Below are positions 16,550 to 48,393 of a stretch of 64,000 nt of DNA, one piece after another. Positions within the stretch are counted from its first letter, which is position 1. Each line of letters starts with the position of its first letter. Location of the stretch: NCBI GenBank assembly GCA_025058315.1, contig JANXET010000007.1:1-64000 (forward strand). The letters are read 5' to 3'. The notes beneath the pieces are model-generated. The model saw nothing but the letters and a program-made list of their open reading frames with translations. It did no database searches and was not told the origin of the DNA. The position numbers and the translations under genes were made by a program. The DNA comes from Candidatus Bathyarchaeota archaeon (lineage in GTDB: Archaea; Thermoproteota; Bathyarchaeia; Bathyarchaeales; Bathycorpusculaceae).

Positions 16550-17572
16550 ATGCCTAGAAGCGTCGCTCCATGGCAAGTTAAACGTGAAATTATATTTAAG
16601 GCTGAAGACGAGACGGACATGAAACATGGTTGTAAACCTGAAGAGCGCCCTGCGCAGCAACACATAAGATACGGCATTATAAACCTGGACAAGCCGGCAG
16701 GGCCCACAAGCCACGAAGTTGCCGCTTGGGTTAAACGCATATTGGGCATTCAGAATGTCGGTCACGGTGGGACTCTAGAAGCCTAGCGCTGGAGAAATCC
16801 CAACGTGACCGGTGTTTTGCCCATAACCCTTGAGGAGTCCAGGAAGGTTGTTCAAGCTCTCCTCACAAGCGGTAAAGAATATGTCTGCGTGATGAAGCTT
16901 CACGGGGATGTTTCTGAGGAAAAAGTGCGATCAATCCTGCAAGAGTTTGAGAACACCATCTATCAGAGGCCACCTTTAAGGGCATCGGTTAAACGTCAAC
17001 TTAGAACTAGACGCATATACTATATGGATTTCTTGGAGATGGAGGGACGCAACGTCCTATTTAAAGTAGGCTGTGAGGGTGGGACTTACATCCGTATGCT
17101 GTGTCACCATATTGGTGAAGTGTTAGGTTGTGGGGCGCATATGCAGGAACTCCGTAGGACAAGAGCCGGACCCTTCGTTGAAAGCGAGGGTATAGTAACC
17201 TTGCATGATGTAGCTTATTTGTTCATGGAATGGCAGAGGACACGCGACGACGCCATTTTAAAGAAATTTATACATCCTGTGGAAAAGGCGCTGGAGTTTA
17301 TTCCGAAGATCTATATACGAGACTCCGCGGTTGATGCAATCTGTCATGGTGCAAGCCTGACGGCTCCCGGCGTTTTGCAGCTGGAGACAGATATTGATAA
17401 GAACTCGCTGGTTGCCATTTTCACCTTGAAAGGTGAAGCTGTTGCTCTTGGAAGGGCTACAGCGTCCACTTATGAGATCCTGAACATGAATCATGGCATA
17501 GTAGCGCGAACAGAGAGAGTTTTAATGCCCAGAGGGACATATCCAAAGCATTGGAAGAGCGGCGAAATCTAA
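16550..17572 (+). CDS. cbf5: tRNA/rRNA pseudouridine synthase Cbf5, split by an 18-nt intron
   Basis: Cbf5 is the catalytic protein of H/ACA guide ribonucleoproteins and can modify tRNA U55. Read straight through, the frame hits TAG at 16784-16786 inside the catalytic loop (GHGGTL...VTGVLP). Removing 16779-16796 joins exon 16550-16778 to exon 16797-17572 in frame, giving 334 residues with the exact motif GGTLDPNVTG and catalytic Asp77. The N-terminus has INLDKPAGPTSHEV and the C-terminal half carries the PUA domain (about 255-334). Upstream is rpl14e; the methyltransferase starts directly after the stop codon. Introns in cbf5 are known from Crenarchaeota. Without splicing the gene would be dead. 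Confidence 0.93.
16760..16810 (+). other. Bulge-helix-bulge motif and 18-nt intron in cbf5
   Basis: The intron is 16779-16796 (AAGCCTAGCGCTGGAGAA). Exon helix GGTCACG (16760-16766) pairs with CGTGACC (16804-16810), one G-A mismatch, then TGGGA (16768-16772) pairs with TCCCA (16798-16802). The central 4-bp helix is CTCT (16773-16776) with GGAG (16791-16794, one G-T pair). The 3-nt bulges are AGA (16777-16779) and AAA (16795-16797), cut after their second base. The inner stem is AGC/GCT with a 5-nt loop. This is the canonical substrate shape of the archaeal splicing endonuclease. Confidence 0.9.
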
Positions 17573-46559: not shown

Positions 46560-47846
46560 TTGCCGTATAGTTATGCTGTTAAAGACATGATGGTTATGAT
46601 TCCTGTTGGAGGAAGAGCTCAGAGACTTCTTCCGTTGACTGCTGAAACAAGTAAGGCTTGTCTGCGGCTACTAAACAGGCCATTAATAGAGTTTTCAATA
46701 CTGGCTCTGGCGCGTCAGGGCATAAGAAACTTTATTTTCGGAGTTAAGGGCTACCGTAACTATCGAGATCTATACGACTACTTCGAGTCCGGCTATGGCT
46801 TATCCGCGCGTTACAGCATAAGCCCGCGGGTGCATATAAAGTATCAGCCAAACGTGGATGATCTTGGAAGTGCGGACTCTGTCAGAATAAACATGGATTA
46901 TTATCATGTGAGGAATCCTGTTTTTGTCGTGCAAGGTGATAACATATTTGATATAAATCTTAAAGAGCTTGTAAATTTCCACCATGAAAAGGAAGCGTTC
47001 GTAACGATTGCGCTTATAGAGGTGAAAGACGTCGGAGGCTTCGGGATAGCTGAATTAAGCGGAGATAACCGCATTAAAAGGTTTGTTGAAAAGCCAAAAC
47101 CTGAAGAAGCCCCTTCAAGACTTGCCAATGCTGGTCTATACTTACTTTCGCCTGAAGTGAGAAAGGTTTTCAGGGAAAATGGTGTTAGACGCATTATGAA
47201 AGAGAGAAATCGATTGGATTTTGGTTATGACTTCATTCCGTACATTGTGAAAACAGGGAGACCTGTTTATGGTTATGTCATGAATGGCGTTTGGTACGAT
47301 GTGGGCACTCCATCAAGATATTTGGAGGCCATGCGGGGTCTGCTTGATGGAAAATGTTCATATTTAGTAGATTTCGGTGGGAGAATTTGTGATGACGCCA
47401 GAATATGGATTCAGGGAGAAAGCCCTGAAGCTAAGAGGCGGAGAAGGGAGATAATAACTAAGATTAAAAGCGGACGAATATGTGTTCAGGGTTCAGTGCT
47501 TATTGGGCGTCATTGCCGGATAGAGGATGGAGCCAGCATCATTAACTCATGCATAGACAATTACACGAAGATAGAGCGAGGTGCAGTCATAGAGAACTCC
47601 GCTGTTATGGACAGATCTATAATTGGCGAAAAAGCTGAGATACGGGATAGCATCATAGGCAGGCATGTAAAGGTTAAATCAAGCAGCCTTAAACCCACCA
47701 AAATTGTATCAGTTTCGGTGGTTGCTGATGACGTTGTAATAGAAGCTGGTTCATCGCTAAATGCAACTAAAATCTATCCACACCAGCATGTTGAAGGTGA
47801 ATTCGAAAACCAAACTCTAATTTTGAAGCAATCCTTTACGCCTTAA
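46560..47846 (+). CDS. Sugar-phosphate nucleotidyltransferase with left-handed beta-helix
   Basis: 428 residues. N-terminal catalytic domain: IPVGGRAQRLLPLTAETSKACLRLLNRP (parts GGRAQRLLPLT and SKACLRLLNRP; a variant of GGxGTRLxPLT), VVQGDNIFD, FVEKPKPEEA, NAGLYLL and WYDVGTPSRYLEA. The C-terminal part (from about residue 300) has hexapeptide-like repeats (GSVLIGRHCRIEDGASI). It activates a sugar phosphate with an NTP. TTG at 46560 (GGTGAAG upstream) or ATG 46587 could be the start. Confidence 0.85.
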   Translation: MPYSYAVKDMMVMIPVGGRAQRLLPLTAETSKACLRLLNRPLIEFSILALARQGIRNFIFGVKGYRNYRDLYDYFESGYGLSARYSISPRVHIKYQPNVDDLGSADSVRINMDYYHVRNPVFVVQGDNIFDINLKELVNFHHEKEAFVTIALIEVKDVGGFGIAELSGDNRIKRFVEKPKPEEAPSRLANAGLYLLSPEVRKVFRENGVRRIMKERNRLDFGYDFIPYIVKTGRPVYGYVMNGVWYDVGTPSRYLEAMRGLLDGKCSYLVDFGGRICDDARIWIQGESPEAKRRRREIITKIKSGRICVQGSVLIGRHCRIEDGASIINSCIDNYTKIERGAVIENSAVMDRSIIGEKAEIRDSIIGRHVKVKSSSLKPTKIVSVSVVADDVVIEAGSSLNATKIYPHQHVEGEFENQTLILKQSFTP

Positions 47847-48393
47847 ACCATTTGAACATCAAATACCTTATTCTATCCTCTTCCAAGTCTGGAACAGCCA
47901 CTATGAATCTCTTTCGCACAGTTGTTGCAAGTCTACCGGCCTTAACAATCTCAGTTGCGGATATCTCCGAAGTGGACTTTTTAACCGAAACCATGTAGGG
48001 TGCATGTTCCAGTCCAGGCCCGTACTTGTAGACTGCGAAGTCGCATCCAAACTTTATCCCTGGCGTAACTATAAACCCGTCCTCCCGTAGATCCCTGTAA
48101 ACGGCGTACTTTTCATCAAATTCTTCATATAATTTTCTGGCTTTATGGAGTAGCTTTTTTAGGCTAACTTTTTTCCCATTCGGCCTTTCATAAACCTCTA
48201 CGATGCCTTTCTCAGCTAAATATACGCCCTCCATAAGGTCAAGAATCAATGGAACATTAAACTCAGGCACCTTGGGCTTAGGTATCCCTAAGGGTTTACC
48301 ATAAAAACCTGTCTTATATAGTTCTGATCCTTCCCGCGGGTTCCAAACTACGAGAAAGTTTTCGATAAGCTCAACAGCCACCTTCTTTTTCAT
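47836..48393 (-). CDS. endA: tRNA-splicing endonuclease EndA
   Basis: 185 residues, the size of the homotetrameric archaeal form. The C-terminal catalytic domain has GCDFAVYKYGPGLEHAPYMV with the catalytic Tyr (Y122) and His (H130), and a Lys in VKAGRLATTVRK (151-161). EndA cuts bulge-helix-bulge RNA. Two likely substrates are in this window: the cbf5 mRNA intron and the tRNA-Ser intron. Converges with the nucleotidyltransferase, overlapping its end by 11 bases. Confidence 0.93.
   Translation of the reverse strand: MKKKVAVELIENFLVVWNPREGSELYKTGFYGKPLGIPKPKVPEFNVPLILDLMEGVYLAEKGIVEVYERPNGKKVSLKKLLHKARKLYEEFDEKYAVYRDLREDGFIVTPGIKFGCDFAVYKYGPGLEHAPYMVSVKKSTSEISATEIVKAGRLATTVRKRFIVAVPDLEEDRIRYLMFKWFKA

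Follow-up and report, generated by a model that had tools for sequence, protein, structure and literature searches.

How could a full-length Cbf5 be made from a gene that carries a stop codon at the point where its catalytic loop should be encoded? The question is raised by a 64,000-nt stretch of a Candidatus Bathyarchaeota contig (hereafter the window), in which cbf5 (16550-17572, plus strand) is interrupted by 18 nt between the first and second bases of the codon for the catalytic Asp77. Read from the ATG at 16550, the open frame ends in ...GHGGTLEA followed by TAG, and picks up again as NPNVTGVLP. An earlier note on this DNA had proposed an intron with a bulge-helix-bulge (BHB) structure, cut after 16778 and after 16796. 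Excision at these sites joins G16778 to AT16797-98, restores Asp77 within GHGGTLDPNVTG, as that note foresaw, and regains the full Cbf5 protein, both halves of the gene matching Cbf5 TIGR00425 (Table 1). Frame, protein motif and BHB agree exactly on the two cut sites and, at the level of sequence, we regard the interrupted gene with its 18-nt insert in the catalytic codon as confirmed and exact to the base. The gene has rpl14e on one side and a methyltransferase gene on the other; its closest counterpart among named genomes, from Candidatus Bathyarchaeota (L033), is 78% identical.

Table 1. Features of the cbf5 locus and of the predicted splicing endonuclease gene, in window coordinates.
Feature	Positions	Strand	Remarks
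cbf5 exon 1	16550..16778	+	76 codons and first base of the Asp77 codon; TIGR00425 positions 5-70, E=1.4e-23
BHB intron, 18 nt	16779..16796	+	removal gives GHGGTLDPNVTG; site common to 199 distinct homologous sequences
In-frame TAG within intron	16784..16786	+	would end translation of unspliced mRNA; stop in 50/50 introns of length 3n
cbf5 exon 2	16797..17572	+	remainder of the Asp77 codon through stop; TIGR00425 positions 74-322, E=4e-100
Outer (exon) helix, 5' strand	16760..16772	+	12/13 paired with 16798-16810
5' strand of central 4-bp helix, CUCU	16773..16776	+	covaries with intron 3' end
5' bulge AGA, predicted cut after 16778	16777..16779	+	exon -1 G 122/122, exon -2 A 110/122, intron +1 A 114/122
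Inner helix, 5' strand AGC	16780..16782	+	partner 16788-16790; 94-97% paired in introns >=17 nt, 0/500 shuffles
Inner helix, 3' strand GCU	16788..16790	+	comparative counts
3' strand of central 4-bp helix, GGAG	16791..16794	+	comparative counts
3' bulge AAA, predicted cut after 16796	16795..16797	+	comparative counts
Outer (exon) helix, 3' strand	16798..16810	+	partner of 16760-16772
EndA catalytic (alpha) subunit, likely nuclease	47836..48393	-	PF01974 2.3e-30; PDB 2cv8 best, then A. pernix 3p1z

The RNA around the insert forms a BHB at both intron borders, with each cut falling between the second and third bulge bases. The near-perfect 13-bp exon helix, the 4-bp central helix and the AGA and AAA bulges described previously were all recovered, the outer helix with 12 of its 13 pairs (G16767/A16803 being the mismatch) and the central helix, CUCU/GGAG, with four, one of them U-G; the inner helix, AGC/GCU, has 3 bp and closes a 5-nt loop. 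Four central plus three inner pairs in the same register arose in 357 of 400,000 shuffled 18-mers (0.09%), 12 of 13 outer pairs had a chance of 0.04% under random synonymous recoding of the exons, and the folding z-score against shuffles was -5.1. The ViennaRNA optimum (-30.8 kcal/mol) pairs A16777-U16790 and G16778-C16789 in place of the 5' bulge, and the canonical BHB (-28.1 kcal/mol) lies 2.7 kcal/mol above it. We rejected this best fold as the true structure on comparative counts, in which intron position -7 is mostly C, giving no pairing with A16777, and covaries with intron +2, as the BHB predicts. The canonical BHB was thus chosen over the computed optimum because covariation favours it; the energy model alone does not.

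The comparative sample consisted of 199 distinct introns and 81 distinct cbf5 genes without an intron, with splice sites in the homologues fixed by the protein motif; covariation was counted in the first 122 introns, each count being tested against 500 shuffles. The central and inner helices covary across these 122 introns (0/500 shuffles). Some of this covariation falls where exon changes are synonymous, the variable exon positions being the third base of a Thr codon and the first base of a Leu codon. Exon -5 and intron -4 are CG in 88 introns, TA in 30 and TG in 3, while exon -4 and intron -5 are CG in 112 and TA in 6 (0/500 shuffles for both), and compensatory changes recur on the tree. Complementarity between the exons is not kept in intronless relatives: pair -8/+2 forms in 77% of genes with the intron versus 18% of those without, and pair -16/+10 in 58% versus 12%. 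Under phylogenetic control, with too few independent pairs, the median p for an exon codon signature did not reach 0.05. The earlier note had named, as an outcome that would speak against an intron, relatives with the same 18 nt in which stop and pairing were gone. What we found is otherwise, since the intron sequences of relatives differ and their pairing is kept; the cbf5 gene of L033, for example, forms the same pairs with an 18-nt intron of another sequence, and Ca. Bathyarchaeum tardum (L055) has an intron of 21 nt. As positive controls, the introns of A. pernix (38 nt), S. hellenicus (36 nt), I. aggregans (39 nt) and S. marinus (36 nt) were recovered at their published sizes, the four genomes being taken as those of the species named. 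The longest of the 199 introns, at 76 nt, is found in L139 (family f29). Introns of 13 nt occur in several families (L155, L156, L157, L165, L170 and L175, also L141); these are too short for an inner helix and probably have a relaxed BHB.

A broken gene or an assembly error, with the TAG marking a pseudogene or a sequencing artefact, could be suspected from the metagenomic origin of the assembly and from the single in-frame stop of a gene that is normal in all other respects. However, this is the sole cbf5 copy in the assembly (1.32 Mb, 54 contigs, 94% complete), and independent assemblies have inserts at the same base which differ in length and sequence and keep the pairing. Covariation and the conserved site refute this reading, to which we assign a negligible probability. 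Translational recoding is a second alternative, with the ribosome bypassing the insert or reading the TAG as an amino acid and no RNA being spliced. The insert's length of 18 nt, a multiple of three, would suit such recoding, and the available text of Yokobori 2009 (PMC2738675) relates that earlier cbf5 cases had been taken for frameshifting. The same text nevertheless reports spliced cDNAs of crenarchaeal cbf5, including that of the A. pernix intron. Lengths of the homologous introns range from 13 to 76 nt, and 149 of the 199 are not multiples of three, so that the cbf5 insert cannot be translated as an insert. Neither a frame conserved across the insert nor fixed take-off and landing codons, as bypass or readthrough would predict, were found; the stops vary between TAA, TGA and TAG, readthrough would put extra residues in the catalytic loop, and the exact geometry of an EndA substrate is conserved and covarying. 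We therefore consider recoding very improbable. Group I and group II introns were also rejected, 13-76 nt being too short for a ribozyme core.

By homology, both predicted subunits of a splicing endonuclease of the (alpha-beta)2 type are encoded in the genome. The likely catalytic subunit (Table 1) has Tyr122, His130 and Lys161, as read from alignments, as well as Lys39 of the Crenarchaea-specific loop, aligned to A. pernix K44; a second EndA copy, on contig 13, is without the catalytic His. Such a two-subunit composition with the specificity-loop Lys characterizes the (alpha-beta)2 type, which has broad specificity (PMC6379350). The catalytic gene shares a contig with cbf5, whose mRNA is the presumed substrate, and lies some 30 kb away from it. 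A search for RtcB in the 94%-complete assembly itself was negative; this assembly is one of two without it in a search of relatives where 39 of 41 genomes have RtcB; because relatives have it, we treat the absence as probably an assembly gap.

With these components, the cbf5 transcript would fold such that the exons form a long helix beside the BHB, heterotetrameric EndA would cut after 16778 and after 16796, and a ligase, presumably RtcB, would join the exons and release an 18-nt RNA. The catalytic Asp77 codon would be complete only after splicing, and where splicing failed translation would end at the intron TAG after 78 residues. A dependence of Cbf5 production on EndA, as put forward earlier, would follow from this scheme. 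We hold it very probable that the 18-nt insert is an archaeal pre-mRNA intron, cut by EndA and ligated, homologous to the crenarchaeal one, old in the Thermoproteota and repeatedly lost, with its stop or frameshift kept by selection.

The bathyarchaeal insert is a member of the known cbf5 pre-mRNA intron family and no new kind of intron. Yokobori 2009 takes precisely this place in the Asp codon as the definition of the cbf5 intron of Crenarchaeota, gives sizes of 16-44 nt, and cites Watanabe 2002 for a crenarchaeal cbf5 pre-mRNA intron (PMC2738675). The comparison with crenarchaeal introns suggested in the earlier note thus gives precisely the same codon position, while its view that so short an intron within the catalytic Asp codon would be out of the ordinary does not stand, as crenarchaeal members share both traits. 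In a literature search conducted without most subscription papers, a single paper named both cbf5 and Bathyarchaeota, with one mention of cbf5 that concerns the crenarchaeal intron, which does not establish priority; we know of no report of a cbf5 intron in Bathyarchaeia.

The distribution of the intron was surveyed by distinct sequence in Thermoproteota, Methanobacteriota and Hadarchaeota. Of the sequences from Bathyarchaeia, 71 of 95 carry it, as do 84 of 90 from the class containing A. pernix and 25 of 28 from the G115 class, which we take to be probably Caldarchaeum; it also occurs in 11 further Thermoproteota families. It is absent from the 16 Methanobacteriota sequences, the one Hadarchaeota sequence and several Thermoproteota families of the sample; the Bathyarchaeia families f61, f65, f66 and f67 gave intronless matches only, at a strict threshold that favours unbroken genes. 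Two intronless bathyarchaeal genes, L023 and L067, have an intron-type exon sequence (GGTCACGGCGGGACTCTAG and ACCCCAAAGTGAC, respectively), which looks like recent precise intron loss. On the Cbf5 tree, a single-gene tree, the state of the intron changes at least 18 times, versus 46 with shuffled labels, and nine of these changes are forced by well-supported branches.

Such patchiness, with the intron-bearing L047 and L239 nested among intronless sequences, may also reflect several independent insertions at the one site, or horizontal transfer to it, and the introns are too short to show homology by sequence alone. Yet base, phase and bulge letters (exon -1 is G in 122/122) are identical in at least three classes, the intronless L023 and L067 keep the intron-type exon sequence GGGACTCTAG, which precise loss would leave behind, and 13-76 nt leaves no room for a mobility gene. 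We regard repeated arrival as possible but doubtful and prefer, on the sequence evidence, one old Thermoproteota intron with many losses, common descent being favoured rather than proven. The range of the one well-documented archaeal pre-mRNA intron, so far two crenarchaeal orders, would widen to take in Bathyarchaeia and other Thermoproteota. This wider range challenges the published date of the gain, which the available text of PMC2738675 places in the ancestor of Desulfurococcales and Sulfolobales, and the intron explains why cbf5 can appear as two broken genes in such genomes.

Introns with a length divisible by three (3n) are somewhat rare (50/199, p 0.013), and every one of the 50 has a stop in frame with exon 1, versus 85 of the 149 others (Fisher p=1e-10). 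The other two frames of the same 50 introns have stops in 12 and 8 only, and shuffling would lead one to expect a stop in 15. With a stop in every 3n intron, unspliced cbf5 mRNA never gives full-length protein. Ascertainment bias was checked in 116 stop-free Cbf5 matches, among which no in-frame insert of intron size was found; the sole match marked as having an intron (G113, 13 nt and non-3n) had already been counted. Outside the original sample, a search of additional Bathyarchaeia gave 57 more matches, and the six in-frame inserts among them all have a stop.

Shared ancestry or base composition might produce this pattern as a by-product, with no selection, given that bathyarchaeal introns begin AGGCTTAA-like, a frame-0 stop included, and that frame-0 stops are also frequent in the non-3n introns. 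Several results make this unlikely. Besides the scarcity of stops in the other frames and the six compliant out-of-sample introns, the 3n introns span 15 families and 34 genera, and within-family permutation gave a mean of 36.9 of 45, never reaching 45 in 20,000 trials. Moreover, 3n and non-3n lengths interchange at least 38 times on the tree. Of 28 independent pairs, about nine have the stop going with 3n and none shows the reverse (median p 0.004). We infer that selection is the reason for the stop rule, which appears to be undescribed; across the family selection would keep a stop or a frameshift, such that no dead Cbf5 of full length could arise from unspliced mRNA. We lean towards the broader reading that the cbf5 intron is ancient in the Thermoproteota and that selection forbids translating through it, always by frameshift or in-frame stop. 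Cbf5 output would then be strictly conditional on EndA, whether as a regulatory gate or to keep a dominant-negative dead Cbf5 out of H/ACA particles. If true, this would be an archaeal counterpart of the eukaryotic rule against stop-less 3n introns, possibly without nonsense-mediated decay, which to our knowledge is not known in archaea. The stop rule suggests that translation of archaeal mRNA before splicing carries a selective cost.

Comparison with known systems places these observations in context. The likeness to the crenarchaeal cbf5 intron, as set out in the available text of PMC2738675, covers the gene, the base position, the cut rule between the second and third bulge bases, the size range and the BHB-type structure. 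The differences concern the host, Bathyarchaeia lying outside the coverage of that text, and the structure, canonical with an inner helix here, whereas the majority of the crenarchaeal cases first described there are called unconventional; an in-frame stop rule for crenarchaeal cbf5 introns receives no mention in the same text. Archaeal tRNA and rRNA BHB introns share the substrate structure and the presumed EndA and ligase pathway, but the host RNA in our case is an mRNA, and a loss would strike an enzyme instead of a tRNA or rRNA. In Haloferax, the BHB in the 5'-UTR of HVO_1309 (PMC7714728) likewise has EndA acting on mRNA, though as UTR processing and not on an intron inside a codon. Finally, stop-less 3n introns are counter-selected in eukaryotes such as Paramecium and Yarrowia, which is explained by decay of unspliced mRNA (PMC2911113). 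There, as here, introns that would keep the frame when retained carry a stop; the eukaryotic rule, however, involves another splicing machinery, invokes nonsense-mediated decay, and describes many genes in one species, where ours describes a single gene across many species.
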